Shown here: positions 35,197 to 48,705 of the stretch, piece after piece
Layout: every line of letters starts with the position of its first letter
Numbering within the stretch: the stretch's first letter is position 1
Assembly (NCBI RefSeq): GCF_000184345.1
Contig: NC_017583.1
Location: forward strand, 1,488,001-1,552,000
Length of the DNA stretch: 64,000 nt
Direction: 5' to 3'
From: Spirochaeta thermophila DSM 6578
GTDB taxonomy: Bacteria > Spirochaetota > Spirochaetia > Winmispirales > Winmispiraceae
Made by a program: the position numbers and the translations under genes
Notes under the pieces: generated by a model
The model's database searches: none
Told to the model about the DNA's origin: nothing
What the model saw: only the letters and a program-made list of their open reading frames with translations

Positions 35197-37290
35197 TCAG
35201 GAGGAGAAGAGATCCGGTTGACGAGGGGGCTCAGATGCCTCTTGCGAGGCAGAGGGCCCCTTCTCTTTCTCATTGAAGGGGTCCACCCCCGCGGCCTTCA
35301 GCATCTCGATGAACTGGTCTTCGGAGACCAGGCGGACACCGAGGGAGCGGGCCTTCTCCAGCTTGGAGCCGGGGTTTTCGCCCACGAGGAGGTGGGTGGT
35401 CTTCGATGAGACACTGCTTACCACTTTCCCGCCGAGAGAGGCGATGAGCTCTTCGGCCTTGCTTCTGGGGGTGAAGTGCCGGAAGCTCCCGGTCACACAC
35501 CAGGCCTGGCCTTCGAAGGGGCCGCCGGAGACCACGGTAGGTCGCTCCTCCTCGAAGGAGAGGCCTGCCTTCCGGAGCTCCTCGATTTCCTTCCGCCACT
35601 CGGGGTCTCTCAGTGTCTCCATGAGCTGCCGGGCGGTCTTCTCACCTATGCCTTCGAGCCGGGTGAGGGCTTCGACATCACCTCTATCGGCGATGGTAAA
35701 GAGCCGGTCGATGCTCGTGATGCCGCCCCGTATGAGGGTCTCGACCACGCTCGGGCCTACCTCCGGGATCCCGAGGGCCACGAGCACGGTGGAGAAGGGG
35801 CGCTTCTTGCTCTCCTCGATGCCCTGGACGATCTGACTGATCTTCTTCTCCCCAAAACCGGGCTCGTCGAGGAGCTTCCAGTAGTCGAAGGTGTAGAGGT
35901 CGGGGATACGCCGGATGTAGCCCTTCTCCACGAGGAAGTCGATGGTCTCGTTCCCCAAGACACGGATGTCCATCTGTTTGGGGCTCACGAAGAACTTGAG
36001 CCTGCCCGTGATCACGGCAGGGCAGTTCCTGTTTGGACAGAAGTGGTGGGCTCCCCGGCGCTCGAGGGGAGAGCCGCACTCGGGGCAGTGTTCGGGCATG
36101 CGCCAGACCGGCACGCCCTCCTCGTTCTTCTCCACCACCTTCTCGATGGCAGGTATGACGTCCCCCCGCTTGGAGATGGCGACGAGGTCGCCGGGTGCGA
36201 GCTCGAGGGCCTGGACGTAGTCCTCGTTGTGGAGGGTGACGTTGGAGATGGTGGAACCCGAGAGCTCAACGGGCTTGAGGCGTGCAACAGGGGTGACGCG
36301 GCCGGTGCGCCCCACCTGGACGTCGATGCGGAGGAGTTCGGTCACGGCCTGTGGGGCCTCGAATTTGTAGGCGATGGCCCATCGTGGATGGTGGCCGGTG
36401 TAGCCGAGGCGTTCCCGGACATCGAGTTCGTTCACCTTGAAGACCAGGCCGTCGATCTGGTAGTCGAGGGTCGCCCGCCCGCTGCGTTCCCTCTCGATGA
36501 AGGTGCGGATGCGGGCTTCACGGTCAGGGGTTCCGGCGGGGAGGCGTTCGTGGCGCGGGTTCACCGGGAATCCCCAGTCGATGAGGTAGTCGAGGCTCTC
36601 GGTGTAGGTGGCGACCGGGAAGGGAAGGTAGCCGTCGTAGGCCAAGAAGTGGAGGGGTACCCGGGCGACCTCGGCGCTGTTCTTCCTGCGCAGTACGCCC
36701 CCTGCGAGGTTGCGGGGGTTGGCGTAGGGGACTTCCATCCGGGCGTTGATCTCGTCGAAGTACTGGAGGGGGAGGTAGACCTCACCCCGGACCACGACCT
36801 CTCCGTTTTCCGGAATGCGCAGGGGGATCTGCCTGATGGTTCTGGCGTTGGGGGTGATGTCGTTCCCCACCCTTCCGTTGCCGCGGGTGACGGCACGATC
36901 GAGGATGCCGCCCCGGTAGTAGAGCACCAGGGAGACGCCGTCGATCTTCTCTTCTATGACGAATCCGAGGGGCTTGCCTGCGGCGCGCTCGGTCTTCTCG
37001 ATCCAGGAGAGGACCTCGGTCTCGGTGTAGGCTTTGTCGAGGCTCAAGACCGGGATGGTGTGTGCGACTTCGGGGAAGTCCACGGTGAGATCGGAGCCCA
37101 CGCGCTGGATGGGGGAATCGGGGCGCCGGAGGTGGGGGAACCGTGTCTCGAGGGTCTTGAGGCGCTCGAAGAGGCTGTCGTATTCCTGGTCGGTGAGGTG
37201 GGGTCGGCCGAGGACGTAGTACTCGTAGTCCGCCCGCTGGAGGAGTTCGACGAGTCGGTCGATCTCCCTCTTGGCTTCCTGCTCGGTCAT
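35197..37290 (-). CDS. ligA: NAD-dependent DNA ligase
   Basis: A 697-residue replication/repair ligase that seals nicks using NAD+. Domains in order: NAD-binding Ia (YEYYVLGRPHLTDQEYDSLF), adenylation domain with catalytic Lys in EEKIDGVSL near residue 117, OB fold, a four-Cys zinc finger (CPECGSPLERRG...FCPNRNC near residue 410), helix-hairpin-helix repeats, and a C-terminal BRCT domain (GQAWCVTGSFRHFTPRSKAEE). The start is ambiguous: GTG at 37293 or ATG at 37290, both overlapping the upstream stop (GTGATGA), so translation is probably coupled to the RlpA-like gene. Confidence 0.96.
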   Translation of the reverse strand: MTEQEAKREIDRLVELLQRADYEYYVLGRPHLTDQEYDSLFERLKTLETRFPHLRRPDSPIQRVGSDLTVDFPEVAHTIPVLSLDKAYTETEVLSWIEKTERAAGKPLGFVIEEKIDGVSLVLYYRGGILDRAVTRGNGRVGNDITPNARTIRQIPLRIPENGEVVVRGEVYLPLQYFDEINARMEVPYANPRNLAGGVLRRKNSAEVARVPLHFLAYDGYLPFPVATYTESLDYLIDWGFPVNPRHERLPAGTPDREARIRTFIERERSGRATLDYQIDGLVFKVNELDVRERLGYTGHHPRWAIAYKFEAPQAVTELLRIDVQVGRTGRVTPVARLKPVELSGSTISNVTLHNEDYVQALELAPGDLVAISKRGDVIPAIEKVVEKNEEGVPVWRMPEHCPECGSPLERRGAHHFCPNRNCPAVITGRLKFFVSPKQMDIRVLGNETIDFLVEKGYIRRIPDLYTFDYWKLLDEPGFGEKKISQIVQGIEESKKRPFSTVLVALGIPEVGPSVVETLIRGGITSIDRLFTIADRGDVEALTRLEGIGEKTARQLMETLRDPEWRKEIEELRKAGLSFEEERPTVVSGGPFEGQAWCVTGSFRHFTPRSKAEELIASLGGKVVSSVSSKTTHLLVGENPGSKLEKARSLGVRLVSEDQFIEMLKAAGVDPFNEKEKGPSASQEASEPPRQPDLFSS

Positions 37291-39026
37291 CACCTCCCCC
37301 GCTGGATGAAGGCGTCTCTGAAGCCCTGTGCCTTGAACCAGTACAGGAGGGTGCCTCCCTCATCTTCATTGAGAGGTCCCACCAGAATGCGGTACACGGT
37401 GGTGCCGTCCGGTCGGGTGAGGGGATAGGCGACCACCGGATAGGTGGTGCGGATCCTCTGTACCAGGTGCAGGGCTGTCTGGGGGCGTGTAAATGCCCCT
37501 ATCTGGAGGTAATATGCACCTGGATCGAGGGATTCGACAAGGGGAAGGTTGGTGTCGGCCACCACAGGGGCGGGGGTGGGAGAGGGTGTGGGCGTGGGGG
37601 CGGGTGGGAGCTGCTCGATGATGCGCTCGATGGCCTCTGCTTCGGGGGTGGGGGTGGGTTCCGGGGCGACAGGGGGGCGCTCCTCTGCAGGCACGAGGGC
37701 GAGTTCCACCTCTCCTTCAGGGAGGATCGGGGTGGGGGTGGGGCCGGGAGTGGGTGGGGCCTCGGCCAGGGTGGGCTCTTCCTGGGGTACGACGAGGGCG
37801 GTGTCGGGTATGGTGGGGGGGGTGAGGGTCTCCACCAGGGCTTCATCGCGTGCAGGTGCTGCAGGTTCGAGGAGGGGTGGGGCAAGGGCGAGTGAGGGGG
37901 CATGAGGTGGTTCGGGTGCGAGCTGAGGGGACGGGACGGGAGGCGGGTCGTCGAGGGGAATGGGGGTGGGGGTGGGTGTGAGGGTGCGCGGCGGAGTGAG
38001 GGAGATGAGGGGGCTCGGTGCGGGTTCCGGGGTAGGAGTGGGGGTGGGTGGTGCGGCGACCTCAGGGGTGGGGGTGGGTTGTGGAGTGGCAGCGGCGATC
38101 TCACCGCCGGATTCAGGGAGTTCGGGTTCCTCGAGGAGTTCGATCTCGGCTTCGGAGAGGTCGAGGGTGGTCTCGGGTTCGGTGAGGAAGAGGAAGGGAT
38201 TCTCGGAACGCGGCGGGAGACGAAGGGGTTTGGAGGGGGTGCGTGAAGTGAGCTGGGTGAGAAGGGGTTCGGTGGGGGGTGCGGTGGGGGTGAGGAGGGG
38301 GACGGTGGGGATGGGGGTGGGTTCGGTGCGGGCCGGTGCGGGAGTGGGTGCGGGGGATGGGGTGGGGGTCGGGGTGGGTGCGGGGGATGGGGTGGGAACT
38401 GGTGTGGGTTCGGCGCGGGCGGGCGCAGGAGTGGGTGAGGGGGACGGCGTGAGGGACGGTGAAGGGACCGGTGTGGGCTCGGCACGGGCCGGCTGGGGGG
38501 TGGGGCCGGGGGGCGGGGAGGGCTCGAGCAGGGAGGCGGTGAGGGGAACGGAGCCGGGTTGGAGGCGCGGGGTGGGGAGAGGGGTGACGGGGGTGGGGGT
38601 GGGGGTGGGCGTGAGCGCGCTCTCGGGGATGGTGGCTCCGGGATTGAAATCGATGTCGGACGTGATTCCTGCTCCTCCGGCGGCTGCACCCGCCGTGACC
38701 CTGGACTTCTCCACCGCCCTCACCCGGGCGATGGTGCCCGAGGGGATGCCCAGGGCGCGGGCCGCATCCCCGGAGAGGAGAAGGAGGAGTCCTTCCTCTT
38801 TCAAGGGCTGGGTCACGATCACGGTGATCGTGGCACTGTTCTCGAGGTTGGTCACCTCGACCAAGGTGTTGGGAGGAAACGCGTTCGACGCAGCATAGTA
38901 TCCCCCGGAGGGGAAGTCACCGTACCGCGAGACGGTGGCGGTCCCCTGCCACACGTTCTGGGACGCCTCGCTCGTCCACGCGAAACCGCCTATGAGGATC
39001 ATGAGGAGCAGGGTTTTCCGATCCAT
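37290..39026 (-). CDS. RlpA-like/SPOR envelope protein with long Pro/Thr-rich linker
   Basis: A 578-residue exported protein. A signal peptide covers residues ~1-20 ([21 protein letters not shown]). Residues ~25-110 resemble the RlpA double-psi beta-barrel ([32 protein letters not shown]). Residues ~139-490 are a low-complexity linker of [14 protein letters not shown] and EPTPVP units. Residues ~503-578 are a SPOR domain ([23 protein letters not shown]), which binds denuded peptidoglycan glycan strands at division sites. RlpA enzymes are lytic transglycosylases; whether the catalytic residues are kept here is uncertain. AAGGAG precedes the ATG; ligA follows in overlap. Confidence 0.82.
37557..38612 (-). 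repeat. Pro/Thr-coding low-complexity repeat tract
   Basis: About 1 kb of irregular CCC/ACC-rich repeats on the minus strand encoding the linker of the RlpA/SPOR protein. The plus strand is correspondingly rich in GGGGGTG units, which opens long shadow frames on both strands. The tract could expand or contract by slippage. Confidence 0.8.
38589..38609 (+). repeat. Potential G-quadruplex
   Basis: Four G-runs (5, 5, 5 and 3 G) separated by single T residues, on the strand that is the template for the RlpA-like gene. This matches the short-loop G4 pattern; similar runs recur at about 37961. Confidence 0.55.
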
Positions 39027-39192: not shown

Positions 39193-40671
39193 ATGAGAAA
39201 GACGACGGGTTCATCACGAATCTACATCATAGGCGCAGGGCTGGCCGGTACGGCCATTGCGAAGGAGATCCAGGAGAAGGGCATCTTCGGATCGGTGGCG
39301 GCTTTTCTGGATGACGATCCCGGAAAGATCGGCACGAAACTCATGGGGGTTCCGGTGCTGGGTCCCATACGCGACGTCCTGCCCGTCCTCGGCAACAGGC
39401 CCCACGACGAGGCCCTCATCGCCATGCCCGGGGCCTCACGCATGGTCCTCAAGGGGATCTACGAGGCCCTCAAACAGGCCGGCTTCGGTCGCATCCGCAT
39501 CCTCCCCACCATATCCCAGATCCTCGACGGCGAGGCACATCTCATCCAGACAAAGGAGATAGACCCCGCCGACCTTCTCCCCCGGGAACCCCTCACCATC
39601 AATCTCTCCGAGGCCCTCAGGTACCTTCGAGGAAAGCGGGTCCTCATCACCGGCGCGGGGGGAAGCATCGGGAGTGAGCTCGCGCGCCAGCTCCTCTTCG
39701 GTGGGGTGCAGCGCCTCTACCTCCTCGGGCACGGGGAGAACAGTATCTACGAGATCGACCGGGAGCTCCGTCTCCTCCAGAAGGAAGGGGTCGGAGAGAA
39801 GGCCGCGGTGGTGCCCATCATCGGAGAGCTTCAGGACAGGGACTTCATGTTCTACATCCTCGAGCGCCTCAGGGCCGATGTGGTCTTCCACTGCGCTGCG
39901 CATAAGCACGTGCCGCTCATGGAGGCGAACCCGGTGGAGGCCATCAAGAACAACGTCTTCGGCACCAGAAACCTCGTGGACGCGGCCCGTGCCGCCGGGA
40001 CGCAACGGTTCGTTTTCGTCTCCACCGACAAAGCGGCCGATCCTGTGAGCGTGTACGGCTGTTCGAAGCGGATCGCCGAAGAGATCGTGCTCTCCAGCGA
40101 TGGTGAGGTCTGTGCCTACATGGTGGTCAGGTTCGGCAATGTCCTCGGATCCCGTGGGAGCATCATGCCGCTCTTCAAGGAACAGATTCTCACCGGAGGG
40201 CCCGTGACCATCACCACCCCCGGGACCACCCGCTTCTTCATGACCATACCGGAAGCGGCCTCCCTCATCCTCAAGGCGGGAGGCGTCACGGAGAAGGGAG
40301 CGCTCTTCGTCCTCGACATGGGCAAACCCATCCGGATACAGGACCTCGCCGAACAGATGATCAGATTCTACGGCTTCGAACCCCACCGTGACATCCCCAT
40401 CGAGTACATCGGTCTTCGCCCTGGAGAGAAGGAACACGAAACCCTCACCGCAGAGGACGAGGAGCTCAAGCCCACCCCCTACCCGGGGATCCTCCAGGTG
40501 GTGAGGAACGGTGGGGCGAACCTCCCGGTGGAGAGAATCGTCGAAGAGCTCCGGCCCATCTGTTTCCGGATGCCGGGAAAGGAGTACCTCTACCGGAACA
40601 GGGAGCACCTCTCTGAGGTGCTCGCGACATACTTTTCCTCCTATCGGGTGCTGGTGAGGCGTTCGGCATGA
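39193..40671 (+). CDS. Nucleotide-sugar dehydratase, CapD/FlaA1 type without membrane anchor
   Basis: A 492-residue protein with two Rossmann parts. Residues ~8-130 hold the first (RIYIIGAGLAGTAIAKEI and AFLDDDPGKIGTKLMG). Residues ~145-440 form the catalytic SDR: VLITGAGGSIGSELARQL, AAHKHVPLMEANPVEA, VFVSTDKAADPVSVYGCSKR, VVRFGNVLGSRGS, GLRPGEKEHE. The family includes UDP-GlcNAc 4,6- and 5-inverting dehydratases. WbpM/PglF proteins carry four N-terminal membrane spans that are missing here, and it keeps Tyr in YGCSK where membrane types usually have Met. GAGAGG precedes the ATG. It overlaps the aminotransferase gene by 4 bases, so both act in one amino-sugar pathway. Confidence 0.85.
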   Translation: MRKTTGSSRIYIIGAGLAGTAIAKEIQEKGIFGSVAAFLDDDPGKIGTKLMGVPVLGPIRDVLPVLGNRPHDEALIAMPGASRMVLKGIYEALKQAGFGRIRILPTISQILDGEAHLIQTKEIDPADLLPREPLTINLSEALRYLRGKRVLITGAGGSIGSELARQLLFGGVQRLYLLGHGENSIYEIDRELRLLQKEGVGEKAAVVPIIGELQDRDFMFYILERLRADVVFHCAAHKHVPLMEANPVEAIKNNVFGTRNLVDAARAAGTQRFVFVSTDKAADPVSVYGCSKRIAEEIVLSSDGEVCAYMVVRFGNVLGSRGSIMPLFKEQILTGGPVTITTPGTTRFFMTIPEAASLILKAGGVTEKGALFVLDMGKPIRIQDLAEQMIRFYGFEPHRDIPIEYIGLRPGEKEHETLTAEDEELKPTPYPGILQVVRNGGANLPVERIVEELRPICFRMPGKEYLYRNREHLSEVLATYFSSYRVLVRRSA

Positions 40672-41861
40672 GCGAGGCATCCCCGTCCTACACCATTCCG
40701 TTCGCCCGGCCCCACGTAGGGAAGGAGGAAGAAGAGGCGGTGCTCAGGGTCCTACGGAGCGGCTGGCTCACCACGGGGAAGGAGGCCCTCGCCTTCGAGG
40801 AGGAATTCGCCAAGGCAGTGGGAGTTCCTCATGCGTGCGCAGTACAGTCGGCGACCGCGGGGCTCCACCTGGCCCTCGAGGCCGTGGGTGTCCGGGAAGG
40901 GGATCTGGTGATCACCACCCCCTACACCTTCACCGCCACGGCCGAAGTCGCCCGTTACCTCGGGGCGGAGGTCCTCTTCTGCGACATCGATGAGAAGACC
41001 CTCACCATCGATCCCCGTGAAGTCGAACGTACACTGAAGGACCCCGTGGTGGCTCGAAAGGCGAAGGTCGTCGTGCCGGTGCACCTCGCAGGACGCGGGG
41101 CCCGGATGGCGGAGCTCCTCGAGATCGCACGCACCGCCGGAGTCGCGGTGGTGGAGGACGCTGCCCATGCCTTTCCGGTGGAGACTCCCCTGGGCATGCT
41201 CGGCGCCATCGGGGATCTGGGGGTCTACTCCTTCTACGCCACCAAGCCCATCACCACGGGTGAGGGGGGCATGGTGGTCACCGCGAGCGAGGTGTATGCG
41301 ACGCGTGTGAGACTCATGAGGCTCCATGGGATCGACAGGCCCGTATGGAATCGCTATCGAACGGCCGGGGCCGCGTGGTACTACGAGGTGGTGGAACCGG
41401 GATTCAAGTACAACATGCCCGACATCCTCGCCGCAATAGGCCGGGTGCAGCTCCGCAAGGCCTGGAAGCTCAGGGAGGAGAGGAAGAGGATCGCCCTCCG
41501 CTATTTGGAGGCCTTCGCAACCAGGGATTACCTCATACTCCCCGACGCCCCGGAGGAACACGCCTGGCATCTGTTCATCCTGGGGATCAGGGAGGATCTC
41601 CTCTCCATCACCCGGGACGAGTACATCGAAAAGCTCGCCCGGAGGGGTATCGGCACCTCAGTCCACTACATCCCTCTCTTCCTCATGCCCTACTACCGCA
41701 AACGCTATCACCTCTCACCGGATGATTTTCCCGTCTCCATGAGGGTGTACCGGCGGTCGTTCAGCCTTCCCCTCTATCCCGATCTCTCGGATGAAGAGGT
41801 GGACTACGTGATCCGCTCGGTCCTGGAGACAGGCGACGCCGCCTACAGGAAAAGGCCATGA
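40668..41861 (+). CDS. DegT/DnrJ/EryC1-family PLP aminotransferase
   Basis: A 397-residue sugar aminotransferase. Features: IPFARPHVGKEEEEAVLRVLRSGW at the N-terminus (split here as IPFARPHVGKEEEE and AVLRVLRSGW), SATAGLHLAL, PVHLAGRGARM, EDAAHAFP, and the PLP-binding Lys in FYATKPITTGEGGMV. These enzymes transfer an amino group to a 4-keto nucleotide sugar, the product of the dehydratase encoded just before it. Overlaps of 4 bases on both sides put it in one operon with the dehydratase and the molybdo-hydroxylase-like genes. Confidence 0.9.
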   Translation: MSEASPSYTIPFARPHVGKEEEEAVLRVLRSGWLTTGKEALAFEEEFAKAVGVPHACAVQSATAGLHLALEAVGVREGDLVITTPYTFTATAEVARYLGAEVLFCDIDEKTLTIDPREVERTLKDPVVARKAKVVVPVHLAGRGARMAELLEIARTAGVAVVEDAAHAFPVETPLGMLGAIGDLGVYSFYATKPITTGEGGMVVTASEVYATRVRLMRLHGIDRPVWNRYRTAGAAWYYEVVEPGFKYNMPDILAAIGRVQLRKAWKLREERKRIALRYLEAFATRDYLILPDAPEEHAWHLFILGIREDLLSITRDEYIEKLARRGIGTSVHYIPLFLMPYYRKRYHLSPDDFPVSMRVYRRSFSLPLYPDLSDEEVDYVIRSVLETGDAAYRKRP

Positions 41862-43861
41862 ACCTGAGGGACTTGAGAACCGTACTCACCGGAGGAGCCG
41901 AACACCCCCTGGATCTCTCGTTTCCCGGGATGCTCCACGTGGGCATCCTCAGGTCCACCAGGGCCCACGCAAAGATCAGGGAGATCCAGATTCCCCAGGA
42001 CATCCCCCCCGACATCAACATCATCCGCGCAGCCGACCTCCCCCGCCCTACCCTCACCATCCTCGATGAAGAGATCCCTCTCCTCGCGGAAGACAAGGTC
42101 TTCTATGAAGGACAACCCATCCTCCTCGTCGTCGCACCCTCCTCCCGGGAGATGAGGGAGATCCTCTCGAGGATACAGGTGACCTACGAGGAACTCCCCG
42201 CCACCATCTCATTGGAAGAAGCCCTGGGCCACCAGATCGCTCACGTCCGAACCGCCACAAGGGGTCCCTGGGAGGAGGAACCGGAGACAGAGATCATACG
42301 AGGCCGTATCCTCGTCCCGTCCGAGTCCCTGCCGCCACTCCGCGAGGAGGCCATCGTCACCCACCTCGCCGACGGAGTGCTCCACATCGCCACCACATGT
42401 CCATGGCCCTCGCTCGTCCGAGAGACCGTGGCCCGTGTATGCGGCAAGCCGTCCTCCAAGATCCACGTGAACCTCTTCAGGGAGGAACATCTCTACGATG
42501 CGGACGTCCTCACCCCGCTCCTCTGCTCCGCCTATGCGGCCTTCGTCACGTGCACAACGGGGCGCCCGTGTAGGCTGCAACTATCCCCCCACGAAATGAG
42601 CCGTTACGGCAGCAAGGCCCCCTCGGTGCTTCTCCAGTACACCGCCTGGATCGCCCGGAACGCCGTGAGGAAGGTCGACCTCCTCATCTCCATCGATGCA
42701 GGGTATATCGCGCCCTTCAGCAGGGAGATGGTCGATCGGGCCTTTTCCAGCATCCTCTCCCTCTACCGATGGAAGAGCATGCGACTCACCATACGCGCCG
42801 TCCGGACGAACCTCCTTCCCACCGGGTTCTTCGCCGGCCTGGGAGATGTCCCCATCGCCCGTGCCGTGGAGGGCATGATGAACCACCTGGCCCTCAAGGC
42901 CGGGGCCTCTCCCGAGGAGTGGAGGCTCACACACCTCCGGGGAGACCCTTCCTTCGACGCACTTCGTACTCTCGTCCGGGAAGCCACCCGAAAAGCCGAC
43001 TTTCCGCGCAAGTTCACTGTCGAGAGCATCACACCAAGAACAGAGGCTCTCCCCTTCGAACCGAGAAGAGGTACAGGTCTCGCCGTCGCAGGCCTCTGGC
43101 ACGGGTTCTTCTCGTTCCCCGAGAGGTGGCGACGTGCCGCCCTCTCCCTCTCGCTGGAGACCGACGGAACACTCGTAGTACGAAGCACCCACCTTCCACA
43201 ACATCCGGAACTGCGGGACGTCTGGATATCTCTCATCAAGGAGTACACCGGCATATCGGAAGGGAAGATCACCTTCTCGTTCGAGGGGGCCTCCGACCTC
43301 CCCGCAGGAGGTCCCTCATCCATGGGGAGAAACGTGAGGCTCTTCACCGGGCTCCTGGTGAGGGCCTGCAGAGAACTCCAGCAGAAACGATTCCGCACCC
43401 CCCTCCCCATACACCTCTCGGTCTATGCGAGAGGGACGAGGGTCAAACCCACCGCCCAAGGATATCACCTCCTTCCCCCCAGTGAAAAGGCATGGGGCGT
43501 GGGCATAGTGGAGGTGCGGGCCATCCCCCTCACCCACGTCCCTCGGATCGTGAAGATCTGGCTCTGCATCGATGCCGGACACATCCTCTCTCCCGAGGCT
43601 CTCAGGAGGGTCCTCATCCAGAACACCCTGACGGCGCTTTCGATGAGACGCTCCTCGTGGGAAAGGGATCTCTATCCCGACATCTCCCTTCCGAACATAG
43701 AGATACACTTCTTCCCCTCCCAGAACACGGTCCCCCTCCCCGCGGGCAACCTCCCCTTCGCCCTCATCCCACCCGCCCTCGATCTCGCCCTCCTCCAGCT
43801 CCATGGGGAGGGCTCCACCACCCTCATCCAGGGAGAAGAACACCATGTTGCTCACCTGTGA
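41858..43861 (+). CDS. Molybdenum-hydroxylase-like large subunit (XdhA/CoxL family), divergent
   Basis: A 667-residue protein with the layout of the large subunit of xanthine dehydrogenase-type enzymes. It has the alpha/beta hammerhead near residues 15-115 (FPGMLHVGILRSTRAHAKI, LAEDKVFYEGQPILLVVA) and molybdopterin-domain echoes (TCPWPSLVRETVARVCG, GGPSSMGRNV, PTGFFAGLGDVPIARAVEGM). It is about 80-140 residues shorter than usual. The GGGFGGK motif is not seen, and the C-terminal catalytic GxGE segment reads PAGNLPFALIPPAL, without the Glu. Partner Fe-S and FAD subunits follow. Catalysis as a molybdenum hydroxylase is therefore doubtful; the membership is clearer than the function. Confidence 0.7.
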   Translation: MNLRDLRTVLTGGAEHPLDLSFPGMLHVGILRSTRAHAKIREIQIPQDIPPDINIIRAADLPRPTLTILDEEIPLLAEDKVFYEGQPILLVVAPSSREMREILSRIQVTYEELPATISLEEALGHQIAHVRTATRGPWEEEPETEIIRGRILVPSESLPPLREEAIVTHLADGVLHIATTCPWPSLVRETVARVCGKPSSKIHVNLFREEHLYDADVLTPLLCSAYAAFVTCTTGRPCRLQLSPHEMSRYGSKAPSVLLQYTAWIARNAVRKVDLLISIDAGYIAPFSREMVDRAFSSILSLYRWKSMRLTIRAVRTNLLPTGFFAGLGDVPIARAVEGMMNHLALKAGASPEEWRLTHLRGDPSFDALRTLVREATRKADFPRKFTVESITPRTEALPFEPRRGTGLAVAGLWHGFFSFPERWRRAALSLSLETDGTLVVRSTHLPQHPELRDVWISLIKEYTGISEGKITFSFEGASDLPAGGPSSMGRNVRLFTGLLVRACRELQQKRFRTPLPIHLSVYARGTRVKPTAQGYHLLPPSEKAWGVGIVEVRAIPLTHVPRIVKIWLCIDAGHILSPEALRRVLIQNTLTALSMRRSSWERDLYPDISLPNIEIHFFPSQNTVPLPAGNLPFALIPPALDLALLQLHGEGSTTLIQGEEHHVAHL

Positions 43862-44330
43862 GCTCGATCACGTCCACCTTCAACAGGAGGTGGACCCCCT
43901 CATGGATCTGCACTCCTTCCTCAAGAGTGAACTCCGGGTCACCGCAGTGAAGGGTTCGTGCGGCAGTGGCTACTGCGGACGGTGCGGGGTGCTCATCGAC
44001 GACGTCTTCTCTCTCGCCTGTATGGTCCCCCTCTTCTCGGTACAACAGCGTCGCATCCTCACGATCGTAGGGTTCTCCTCCACCCCCGACTACGTGGATC
44101 TGGAGAAGGGATTCCACGCCGAGAAGGTCTTCCCCTGCGGCCACTGCGCCCCCTCCCGTATCCTCCTCGGCCACAGTCTCCTCGTATACGCGGAGCATCA
44201 TCAGATGGACCCCAGGGGCATAAGGGAACACGTGGCACAGTTTCCCTGCACGTGCATCACCCCCGAGGAGTATACCAGGGGCCTCGTGAAGGCCCTCCGA
44301 TTCAGGCAGAGGCGATATGGACACTACTAG
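43845..44330 (+). CDS. [2Fe-2S] iron-sulfur subunit, xanthine dehydrogenase family
   Basis: A 161-residue electron-transfer subunit. The plant-ferredoxin-like cluster is GSCGSGYCGRCGVLIDD...LAC near residues 37-60 (C-x4-C-x2-C-x11-C). The second, helical cluster site is VFPCGHCAPSRILLG and FPCTCITPEEYTRGLVKAL, equivalent to CGxC...CxC in XdhC/CoxS. Both cluster sites look intact. The ATG at 43845 has GGGAG upstream and overlaps the large-subunit gene by 17 bases. It would carry electrons from the large subunit to the FAD subunit encoded next. Confidence 0.85.
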   Translation: MLLTCELDHVHLQQEVDPLMDLHSFLKSELRVTAVKGSCGSGYCGRCGVLIDDVFSLACMVPLFSVQQRRILTIVGFSSTPDYVDLEKGFHAEKVFPCGHCAPSRILLGHSLLVYAEHHQMDPRGIREHVAQFPCTCITPEEYTRGLVKALRFRQRRYGHY

Positions 44331-45171
44331 GCACTCCGGCGTCGCCATCTACTATCCCCAAGACATTCAAGACGCCCTCCTTCTCGCCCGGAAGCGCCCC
44401 GAGGCCCTTCTCATGGCAGGGGGCACCTATCTCGCCATGAGCGACACCTGGACCCGCTTCCAGGGACCCATCATCACCCTCCAACGGGTCTCAGAACTGA
44501 GCCGGATCATCCGCACGGAACGGTATCTGGAGATAGGCGCCATGGTGAGCCAGGGCCATCTCTCCACCGTGGCCCGCGCCGTCCTCCCCCCCCTCCTCAC
44601 CCGGGCACTTCTCCTCGCAGCCCCTCCCACCGTCAGGTGGAAGGCCACCGTGGGCGGCAACCTCACCATACCCGACAGGAGCCTCGGGATCTCGCCCGCC
44701 CTCATTCTCCTCGACGCCGTGGTCGAGATCCGCACATCCACGAGGAGCAGATGGATTCCCGTCTCCGCCATCAGGAACCAGCAGGGCTTCAGCCTCCTCC
44801 ACGAAGACGAGATCCTCACCCGGATCCGCATCCCCCGAACCCCCTGGACCCACACCCACCTCTTCTCCCTCACGCCGCCCCACCGCATGGATCGCCCACT
44901 CACCCTTTACGGCCTCGCCCGGAGCGAGGGCTCACTCCTCGAGGAGATCCGATGGGCCTTCCACACCCGACACCCCTTCCCCATCCGCATGGCCGACCTG
45001 GAAGGACTCCTCTCCGGCCAACGTCTCCCCCTCTCGGAACGGGAGATGACACGCACCCTGGACGAAGCCGAGGCCCTCATCGCCCAGGAGCAGTACGGCC
45101 TCTCCCCCCACGAACAGCGGCAGGCCCTGCACCTCCTCCACACCTTCCTCCTCAACGTGAGCCACGCCTGA
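44317..45171 (+). CDS. FAD-binding subunit, xanthine dehydrogenase/CO dehydrogenase family
   Basis: A 284-residue flavoprotein subunit (CoxM/XdhB type). FAD-site segments are LLMAGGTYLAMSD near residue 33 and RWKATVGGNLTIPDRSLGISPALILLDA (in parts: ATVGGNL, SPALILLDA) near residue 108-130. The C-terminal CO_deh_flav_C domain is present but divergent. It overlaps the Fe-S gene by 14 bases with AGAGG upstream. It completes the three-subunit set. No accessory XdhC-type maturation gene is seen in the window. Confidence 0.8.
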   Translation: MDTTRHSGVAIYYPQDIQDALLLARKRPEALLMAGGTYLAMSDTWTRFQGPIITLQRVSELSRIIRTERYLEIGAMVSQGHLSTVARAVLPPLLTRALLLAAPPTVRWKATVGGNLTIPDRSLGISPALILLDAVVEIRTSTRSRWIPVSAIRNQQGFSLLHEDEILTRIRIPRTPWTHTHLFSLTPPHRMDRPLTLYGLARSEGSLLEEIRWAFHTRHPFPIRMADLEGLLSGQRLPLSEREMTRTLDEAEALIAQEQYGLSPHEQRQALHLLHTFLLNVSHA

Positions 45172-45294: not shown

Positions 45295-48200
45295 ATGAGC
45301 ACCCATCCGTTCGTGCACCTCCACGTACACAGCGACTACAGCCTGCTCGACGGTTCCATCAAGACAGGGGACCTGGTCAAGAGGGTGAAGGAACTCGGCA
45401 TGGACGCCGTGGCCCTCACCGATCACGGCAACCTCTTCGGCATGATAGAGTTCTACAAGAAGGCCAGGGCGGCAGGAGTGACCCCGATCCTCGGATGCGA
45501 ATGCTACGTGGCCCCGGAATCCCGCACCCTCAAGGATCAAGACCACGCGGCCAACTACCACCTCATCCTCCTCGCCGAGAACTACACCGGTTATCTCAAT
45601 CTCCTCAAACTCGTGACCGAGAGCTACCTCACGGGGTTCTACTACAAACCCCGTATCGACGACGGGCTCCTCGCCGCACATCACGAAGGGCTCATCGCCC
45701 TGAGCTCCTGCCTCGGGGGCGAGATTCCCTCCCTCATCCTCGGCCGCCGGATCGACAAAGCCCGCGAGCGCGCCCGGTTCTACCGGGACATCTTCGGCCC
45801 CGACCGCTTCTACCTGGAACTCCAGGATCACGGCCTCTCCGAGCAGAAACGCGTCAACAAGGCCCTGGTGGAACTCTCGAAGGAGCTCGACATCCCCCTG
45901 GTGGCCACCAACGACGTACACTACCTCCTCAAGGAACACGCCGAGGCCCACGAGGTGCTTCTCTGCATCGGCACGAACAAGAAGCTCTCGGACCAGGACA
46001 GGATGCGGTTCGAGACCCAGGAGTTCTATCTCAAGTCGCCCGAGGAGATGGCCCGCCTCTTCGAGGGAATCCCCGAGGCCCTGGAGAACACCGTACGGAT
46101 CGCGGAACGCTGCGCCTTCGAGATACCATTCCCCGGCCCTCTCCTCCCCGAATACCACATCCCCGAGGGATTCGACTCGCCCGAGGCCTACCTGAGACAC
46201 CTCACCTACGAGGGCCTCAAGAAGAGGTATCACCAGATCACGCGAGAGATCCGCGAGCGGGCCGACCTCGAGCTGTCCATCATCATCCAGATGGGCTTCA
46301 CCGGATACTTCCTCATCGTGTGGGACTTCGTACATTTCGCAAAGGAACAGGGCATCCCCGTGGGTCCGGGTCGCGGATCCGGGGCCGGATCCATCGTGGC
46401 CTATGCCCTCGGCATCACCAACATCGACCCGCTCAAGTACGGTCTCCTCTTCGAGCGATTCCTCAATCCCGAACGGATCTCCATGCCGGACTTCGACATA
46501 GACTTCTGCTACGCGCGCCGCGAAGAGGTGATCGACTACGTGACCCGGAAGTATGGAAAGGATCGGGTCGCCCAGATCATCACCTTCGGGACCCTCAAAC
46601 CCAAGGCCGTGATCAAGGACGTGGCCCGGGTACTCGGGATCCCCTTCGCCGAGGCGAACGAACTCACCAAGCTCATGGGCGATGCATCATCGGTCGAGGA
46701 GGCCATCCAGAGGGAACCGAGACTCGCCCGCCTCGCCGAGGAGGACGAGACCTACACGCGCCTCTTCCAGATAGGCTCGGTGCTCCAGGGCCTCAGCCGT
46801 CACGCATCCACCCATGCGGCGGGTATCGTGATCGGCCGGGAAGCCCTCACCAACTACGTGCCCCTCTACCGGGATCCCAAGACCGGCGACATCTCCACCC
46901 AGTACTCCATGGAACACCTCGAGGACTGCGGGCTCGTGAAGATGGACTTCCTCGGACTCAAGACCCTCACCCTCATCACCCACACCGAGGAGCTCGTCCG
47001 CACGCACACTCCCGACTTCGATACGGAACGCATACCAGAAGACGACGCACAGACCTTCCAGCTCCTGGCCGAGGGGAAGAGCACCTGCGTCTTCCAGTTC
47101 GAGAGTGAGGGTATGCAGAACATCCTCCGAAGGGCGAAACCGGAGAGCATCGAAGAACTCATCGCTCTCAACGCCCTCTACCGGCCCGGGCCCATGCAGT
47201 TCATCGACCAGTTCATCGAGGCGAAACAGGGCAGACGGAAGATCACCTACCCCCACCCCGACCTCGAACCCATCCTCAAGGAGACCTACGGGGTCATCGT
47301 CTACCAGGAACAGGTGATGCAGATCGCCCAGAAGATCGCGGGCTACACCCTGGGCGGAGCCGACATCCTCCGCCGGGCCATGGGGAAGAAGAAGCCCGAG
47401 GTCATGGCGAAGGAGAAGGAGAAGTTCATCAAAGGGGCGGTGGCCCAGGGCTACTCCCGCCAGTTCGCCGAGGAACTCTTCGAGCTCCTCATCCCCTTCG
47501 CAGGCTATGGGTTCAACAAGTCCCACGCCGCCGCGTACTCCGTACTCGCCTACAAGACCGCCTACCTCAAGGCCCACTATCCCGCGGAGTTCATGGCCGC
47601 GAACCTCACGAACGAGATCGGCAACCCGGACAAGCTCGCCCAATACATCGGCGAGACCAGGGCGATGGGCATAGAGGTCCTCCCTCCCGACATCAACGCC
47701 TCCGAACGCTACTTCACGGTCCGGGACGGGAAGATCGTCTACGGCCTCGTGGGCATAAAGAACGTGGGGACCGCTGCAGTGGAGGAGATCCTCGGCAAGC
47801 GGAAGGAAGGACCCTTCACCTCGTTCATCGACTTCCTTTTCCGCGTGGATCTGCGCACCGTCAACCGGAAGGTGATCGAGACATGCATCCAGGCAGGGGT
47901 CTTCGACAGCCTCCATCCCAACCGGGCGGAACTCATGCACAACCTGGAGGCCCTTCTCGCCCACGTGAACCGCATAAAGGAGCAGCAGGAGGCCTCGCAG
48001 GGCTTCCTCTTCGAGGAGACCGAAACCCAGATCCGGGAGGAGTTCCAGTTCACCCCTGTGGAAGACTGGGACACCATGGAGAAGCTCCGCTACGAGCGGG
48101 AACTTCTCGGTTTCTACTTCTCATCGCATCCCCTCGACCACCTGCGCGAGATATGGGAGAAGGGGGTGAACCTCGATCTCTCCCATCCGGAGAGGACCGA

Positions 48201-48705
48201 TCCCTCGAGGACCTACCAGCTCATGGGAGTCCTCAAGACCGTACGCGAAATCACGACCCAGAAGGGGAACCGCATGGCCTTCGGTACCATCGAGGACTAC
48301 AGAGGGAGCATCGAGGCGGTCTTCTTCCCCAACGTATACGAAGCACTCTCCTCCCCCCTCCTCCCGGACACCGTGGTCGCATGCAGGGGACGCGTGGAGA
48401 GGAACCGTGATGACTACAAGTTCATCGTGGAAGAGATGCTCGACCCGAAGGACCTGCCCCCCGTGGGCGCACAGGAAGTCCACATCAGGCTCGCAAGTCC
48501 CCAGGTACCGGAAGACCACCTCTTCAAGATCCGGGAACTCATCCTCAAGCACCGCGGCCGCTGTCAGGTGTTCCTCCACGTACCCCTCTCCTCGGGAAAA
48601 GAACAGGTGGTGAAGGCCTCCGTCCACATCACCACATCCCCTTCGAGGGATCTGATCGATCAGCTCCGGAGAGAGGAGTACGTGCGAGAGATATGGGTCC
48701 AGTGA
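45295..48705 (+). CDS. dnaE: DNA polymerase III alpha subunit
   Basis: A 1136-residue replicative polymerase. Domains in order: PHP (FVHLHVHSDYSLLDGSIK at the start), polymerase palm with GRGSGAGSIVAYALGI and catalytic MPDFDIDFCYARREEVIDYV (in parts: MPDFDIDF, CYARREE), fingers (YGVIVYQEQVMQIAQKIAGY, GYGFNKSHAAAYS), helix-hairpin-helix, and a C-terminal OB fold (YQLMGVLKTVREITTQKGN). DnaE1-type without a 3'-5' exonuclease insertion. The start is confirmed by the family's conserved N-terminus, although no Shine-Dalgarno sequence is visible. Confidence 0.97.
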   Translation: MSTHPFVHLHVHSDYSLLDGSIKTGDLVKRVKELGMDAVALTDHGNLFGMIEFYKKARAAGVTPILGCECYVAPESRTLKDQDHAANYHLILLAENYTGYLNLLKLVTESYLTGFYYKPRIDDGLLAAHHEGLIALSSCLGGEIPSLILGRRIDKARERARFYRDIFGPDRFYLELQDHGLSEQKRVNKALVELSKELDIPLVATNDVHYLLKEHAEAHEVLLCIGTNKKLSDQDRMRFETQEFYLKSPEEMARLFEGIPEALENTVRIAERCAFEIPFPGPLLPEYHIPEGFDSPEAYLRHLTYEGLKKRYHQITREIRERADLELSIIIQMGFTGYFLIVWDFVHFAKEQGIPVGPGRGSGAGSIVAYALGITNIDPLKYGLLFERFLNPERISMPDFDIDFCYARREEVIDYVTRKYGKDRVAQIITFGTLKPKAVIKDVARVLGIPFAEANELTKLMGDASSVEEAIQREPRLARLAEEDETYTRLFQIGSVLQGLSRHASTHAAGIVIGREALTNYVPLYRDPKTGDISTQYSMEHLEDCGLVKMDFLGLKTLTLITHTEELVRTHTPDFDTERIPEDDAQTFQLLAEGKSTCVFQFESEGMQNILRRAKPESIEELIALNALYRPGPMQFIDQFIEAKQGRRKITYPHPDLEPILKETYGVIVYQEQVMQIAQKIAGYTLGGADILRRAMGKKKPEVMAKEKEKFIKGAVAQGYSRQFAEELFELLIPFAGYGFNKSHAAAYSVLAYKTAYLKAHYPAEFMAANLTNEIGNPDKLAQYIGETRAMGIEVLPPDINASERYFTVRDGKIVYGLVGIKNVGTAAVEEILGKRKEGPFTSFIDFLFRVDLRTVNRKVIETCIQAGVFDSLHPNRAELMHNLEALLAHVNRIKEQQEASQGFLFEETETQIREEFQFTPVEDWDTMEKLRYERELLGFYFSSHPLDHLREIWEKGVNLDLSHPERTDPSRTYQLMGVLKTVREITTQKGNRMAFGTIEDYRGSIEAVFFPNVYEALSSPLLPDTVVACRGRVERNRDDYKFIVEEMLDPKDLPPVGAQEVHIRLASPQVPEDHLFKIRELILKHRGRCQVFLHVPLSSGKEQVVKASVHITTSPSRDLIDQLRREEYVREIWVQ

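Follow-up and report, generated by a model that had tools for sequence, protein, structure and literature searches.

The window analysed here is a stretch of 64,000 nucleotides from Spirochaeta thermophila DSM 6578, whose genome of 2,560,222 bases (G000) is contained in a single contig. Five overlapping ORFs, all on the + strand, occupy positions 39193-45171 of the window: two genes of nucleotide-sugar metabolism (the sugar pair) are followed by genes for the large, Fe-S and FAD subunits of a xanthine dehydrogenase (XDH)-like complex (the trio; Table 1). The five ORFs, their gene types and overlaps of 4, 4, 17 and 14 nt had been set out in the original prediction, and all were borne out by the ORF coordinates and by Pfam and NCBIfam comparisons. 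The overlaps are those obtained when the Fe-S gene is taken to start at 43845; none of the 39 aligned Fe-S orthologues lacks the Met at this position.

Table 1. Predicted genes at the locus and its immediate surroundings (positions within the window)
Feature	Coordinates	Strand	Basis and remarks
SPOR-domain protein, divergent neighbour	37290..39026	-	Pro/Thr-rich linker of great length
CapD/FlaA1-type NAD-dependent nucleotide-sugar 4,6-dehydratase	39193..40671	+	Polysacc_synt_2 3e-105 (Pfam)
DegT/PseC-like PLP aminotransferase	40668..41861	+	DegT_DnrJ_EryC1 7e-110 (Pfam); 4-nt overlap with dehydratase
Large subunit, XDH fold, eroded Moco site	41858..43861	+	MoCoBD_1 6e-23, Ald_Xan_dh_C 8e-16; 4-nt overlap
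Fe-S subunit, two [2Fe-2S] sites	43845..44330	+	pucE/XdhC-type small subunit ~1e-17; 17-nt overlap
FAD subunit	44317..45171	+	FAD_binding_5 (PF00941) 9e-30; 14-nt overlap
dnaE, downstream neighbour	45295..48705	+	DNA_pol3_alpha (Pfam)

The dehydratase is of the long form, with an additional N-terminal Rossmann-like domain, and its Tyr288 and Lys292 are kept in 31 of 31 aligned orthologues. Its top NCBIfam match is PseB, at 168 bits against a cut-off of 408, and the aminotransferase scores 350 bits against PseC, where the cut-off is 423.5; as both scores lie under the equivalog cut-offs, they do not fix the exact sugar made by the pair. The PLP-binding Lys193 of the aminotransferase is retained in 32 of 33 aligned sequences. 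A three-deoxysugar E1/E3-like system was considered and ruled out, since the DegT protein retains its PLP lysine and no Fe-S-type cysteine cluster was seen there. All NCBIfam matches of the trio subunits are far under the equivalog cut-offs, and the Pfam matches of the Fe-S subunit to Fer2_3 and Fer2_2 are weak and under cut-off. The large subunit is the sole MoCoBD_1 match in the genome.

For the class Spirochaetia, conservation of the five-gene order, the check proposed with the original prediction, was examined in 120 loci surrounding the strongest large-subunit matches. In 86 of them all five genes stand in the order dehydratase-aminotransferase-large-Fe-S-FAD and share a strand. In every one of the 86 the junction between the large-subunit and Fe-S genes is 30 nt or less; the two genes overlap in 78 loci, and in 48 the overlap is exactly 4 nt. 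The operon is thus one ancient spirochaete unit whose order is not due to chance. Accidental joining of two operons is ruled out by this class-wide order, as had been argued from the overlaps, and relatives in which the two halves always lie apart did not turn up among the 120 loci. A search with a 9-sequence large-subunit alignment gave 170 confirmed matches, and the 80 that were listed all came from Spirochaetia/Spirochaetaceae, Treponema, Breznakiella or Gracilinema; the pattern used is clade-specific, and other phyla may still carry the trio. Among the neighbours, dnaE follows the trio in 39 of the 86 loci with all five genes, and many of the trio loci from genomes without flagellin have it alongside as well; it is not thought to be part of the operon's function. 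Upstream of the operon, 59 of the clustered loci carry a relative of the SPOR-domain neighbour.

The large subunit retains the overall architecture of the XDH family. A profile built from 40 orthologues has a match to bovine xanthine oxidase that runs across the entire subunit, and an AlphaFold model (pLDDT 79.8, pTM 0.81) superimposes on rat XOR with a Z score of 33 and an rmsd of 3.3 A over 634 residues, so that the XDH fold is present. The low-confidence stretches of the model include residues 210-213 and 324-327, the former Moco loops. In a quick tree the orthologues form one clade (SH-aLRT 99) apart from the phylum's ordinary XDH paralogues. No conserved stretch was found in the 40-sequence large-subunit alignment. 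Five genomes (G347, G369, G370, G373 and G377) have XDH-like large subunits outside the operon with one in-frame TGA, which may represent selenocysteine or sequence error.

Residues at the Moco site were counted in an alignment anchored to bovine numbering, in which 119 orthologues were compared with 17 ordinary spirochaete XDH paralogues; L225, which has no recognised Fe-S or FAD neighbour, was taken as an ordinary paralogue and left out. Six site residues that are present in all 17 paralogues have nearly disappeared from the orthologues: E802 is kept in 1, R912 in 4, Q1040 in 3, Q1194 in 3, G1193 in none and G799 in 16 of the 119. None of the five key Moco residues is left in 98 orthologues. 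At ten Moco-site positions, picked on the basis of what is known of the site, 6% is retained on average; the figure is 49% for the remaining positions that do not vary among bovine xanthine oxidase and the paralogues. In the S. thermophila protein the site as a whole (Gly loop, E802, R912, GQG1039-1041, GQ1193-1194 and E1261) is lacking, with G799 replaced by D, E802 by V, R912 by A, Q1040 by P, Q1194 by V and E1261 by N. The pocket has not been wholly remade, since Gln767, Arg880 and the formerly catalytic Glu1261 remain in many copies (83, 70 and 43 of 119, respectively); of these three the S. thermophila protein retains only Arg880. Less eroded sequences are found in a basal subclade (L188, L193, L204, L218, L220 and L226), of which L226 retains both E802 and Q1040. 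Family f77 (L188 and L189) belongs to this basal subclade. In two of its genomes the gene just upstream of the degenerate trio encodes an XdhC/CoxI-type Moco chaperone (L188:4675-5475 in G405; L189:29-469 in G401, both numbered in the orientation of the trio); this gene is perhaps a relic of a Moco-using ancestor.

Profile searches of draft and finished genomes, which were also used for the flagellin and NeuB calls below, revealed no MoaC, MoeA or MoaA C-terminal domain in S. thermophila, in its congener G006 or in G138 of the same family, and a MoaC match is absent from 67 of 115 trio genomes. Absence of these genes is not by itself proof against Moco, since ordinary XDH paralogues occur in some flagellin-less genomes where none of them was detected. 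Seven flagellin-less genomes of family f11 (G274, G224, G234, G248, G264, G269 and G396) have XDH-like paralogues, and MoaA, MoaC and MoeA were undetected in all seven; in the G274 paralogue (L240) the motifs are kept. These genomes possibly import Moco, or the genes were missed. Such cases, together with the complete fold, the pocket residues that persist in many copies and the XdhC-type neighbour that the trio has in two genomes, would suit a molybdenum hydroxylase that still works, either with Moco that it scavenges or through a binding site that has degenerated. We regard this as very improbable, because the Gly loop, Glu802, Arg912, Gln1040 and Gln1194 are gone even in genomes that make Moco (contact loss is seen in MoaC-bearing genomes too) and because Gln767 and Glu1261 are missing as well from the S. 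thermophila protein. With the Moco-holding site gone in nearly every copy, the trio must have another role; it is probably not a molybdo-hydroxylase.

The sites for the other cofactors are largely retained. The S. thermophila Fe-S subunit has the full set of eight cluster cysteines, as do 101 of 116 aligned sequences; in the FAD motif, T-x-G-G, either glycine is found in no fewer than 107 of 116. Fe-S cysteines of one or both clusters have been lost in L044, L194, L178, L068 and L070. The genes might be the decaying remains of an inactive enzyme, held in place by their position in a useful operon; such losses would fit, as would the rapid divergence of the large subunits, which are 22-49% identical to the reference member. 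This seems improbable in view of the dN/dS ratios between S. thermophila and G006 (0.20 for the large, 0.11 for the Fe-S and 0.16 for the FAD subunit), the retention of the eight cysteines, and the near-invariant residues that the large subunit has gained (Trp183, Pro517 and Gln647 in the numbering of the S. thermophila protein). A large-subunit match is also present in 140 of 168 genomes of the class at 1e-60, an upper bound, as ordinary XDH paralogues pass this threshold too. With the three-subunit molybdenum hydroxylases (XdhABC, quinoline 2-oxidoreductase and 4-hydroxybenzoyl-CoA reductase) the trio shares its three subunits, the fold of the large subunit, the FAD motif and both [2Fe-2S] motifs. 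It differs from them in the lost Moco contacts, in the absence of Moco synthesis from S. thermophila and from many of its other hosts, and in its gene order, large/Fe-S/FAD, placed behind sugar genes.

The occurrence of the sugar pair follows that of flagellin. Among loci with at least 3 kb of upstream sequence, the pair lies beside the trio in 69 of 73 flagellin-bearing genomes and in none of 16 genomes without flagellin. The Fisher probability of 1e-13, in which related genomes are treated as independent, was computed on 68 of 73 versus 0 of 16, L045 having then been scored as lacking DegT on account of a long overlapping ORF. All 16 flagellin-less genomes keep the trio, and no DegT match of orthologue strength was found in the sixteen when they were searched. 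On the tree the pair has been lost at least twice, in the flagellin-less group of families f11, f56 and f57 and in genus g12 of family f8, whose sister genus g171 is flagellated and has the complete operon. The two halves of the operon are therefore separable modules. Loss of nearly all motility genes has been reported independently for the non-spiral spirochaetes (PMC12236494).

Strong NeuB matches have a similar distribution. They occur in nearly all flagellin-bearing genomes outside the Borreliaceae (2.8e-49 to PF03102 in S. thermophila, 9.3e-49 in G049) and, among genomes without flagellin, only in G226, G249 and G404. Family f4, which from its gene content appears to be the Borreliaceae, has flagellin and lacks both NeuB and the trio. 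Like PseB/PseC and FlaA1/PglF with PglE, of the nonulosonic acid and bacillosamine pathways, the pair consists of the same enzyme classes encoded by adjacent genes; the nonulosonic acid pathway is matched further by NeuB elsewhere in the S. thermophila genome and by the finding that, in the genomes tested, the pair never adjoins the trio where flagellin is missing. It differs from PseB/PseC in falling under both equivalog cut-offs, in the long form of its dehydratase and in an operon that runs on into a redox trio. Because genomes without flagellin and strong NeuB have lost the pair and kept the trio, the pair most likely makes an amino-sugar precursor of a flagellin nonulosonic acid glycan. 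The 450.2 Da glycan on FlaB of Treponema denticola is a nonulosonic acid. Through its association with flagellin and NeuB, the pair also supplies candidates for the genes behind the essential flagellin glycan of treponemes.

The class-wide retention of a translation-coupled gene order raises the question of a single pathway, in which the Moco-free trio would carry out a redox step on the pair's nucleotide sugar or on nonulosonic acid, for example in tailoring of the flagellin glycan. The T. denticola glycan is a novel one and is essential for filament assembly (PMC9481697), which would accord with such a step. Of the 86 complete loci, 55 have a NusG-domain paralogue near the operon head, mostly as the gene immediately upstream, which suggests joint regulation. 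Linkage by itself is weak proof, since dnaE, plainly unrelated, is also linked in 39 of the 86. Moreover, the trio has outlasted at least two losses of the pair, and G091, a genome 99% complete, has a DegT orthologue without the trio. A shared pathway thus appears rather unlikely to us, though it deserves to be kept in mind. As the trio survives where the pair is gone, it would not depend on the pair's product.

The NusG paralogue, of about 190 residues, was seen near the operon head in L034, L035, L036, L039 and 57 further loci, and in the flagellin-less genus of family f8 it lies directly upstream of the trio. Specialised NusG paralogues can act on adjacent operons (PMC7819879). The arrangement in the 55 complete loci resembles the operons of UpxY, LoaP and TaA in having a NusG-domain gene near the head; unlike there, no such gene was seen beside the operon in the family of S. 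thermophila.

The explanation towards which we lean is that of a two-module operon, in which a flagellin amino-sugar pair is joined to a Moco-free electron-transfer trio, with FAD and two [2Fe-2S] clusters, that acts independently. The dehydratase and then the aminotransferase would convert a UDP-N-acetylamino sugar to a 4-amino-4,6-dideoxy sugar, in what would be the first two steps towards nonulosonic acid on the periplasmic flagellins. The trio would descend from a molybdenum hydroxylase that ceased to hold Moco; electrons most likely move between its two [2Fe-2S] clusters, its FAD and a new ligand. Its former Moco pocket would have been turned to this other ligand or substrate, and its work would proceed apart from that of the pair. 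Of the original interpretation, the single operon and the non-accidental overlaps stand; the hydroxylation of a nucleotide-linked sugar or base by molybdenum is not supported, given the lost Moco contacts, a genome without MoaA, MoaC and MoeA, and a trio that outlives the pair. Quite possibly, and we advance this as a tentative proposal, the trio represents a Moco-free class of the XDH fold, under purifying selection in most Spirochaetia, with new FAD/[2Fe-2S] redox chemistry in the Moco pocket and perhaps another cofactor. To our knowledge there is no precedent for an XDH fold that has its electron chain and no metal cofactor. The occupant of the former Moco pocket is thus a concrete question that can be tested.

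Copies of the trio are annotated as molybdenum enzymes, probably in Treponema pallidum as well, and molybdenum chemistry is thereby credited to organisms that possibly have none. Locus L055 of genome G049, one of the 86 in which the gene order is complete, is probably the T. pallidum copy of the operon. We take it to be TP0077-TP0081, with TP0080 named quinoline 2-oxidoreductase; a literature search on the T. pallidum locus tags yielded nothing relevant. As we read the sequences, this locus is preceded by sugar-transporter-like genes and followed by a sigma-54-activator-like gene. In its Fe-S subunit (L055:8270-8734) all four cysteines of the first cluster have been lost.
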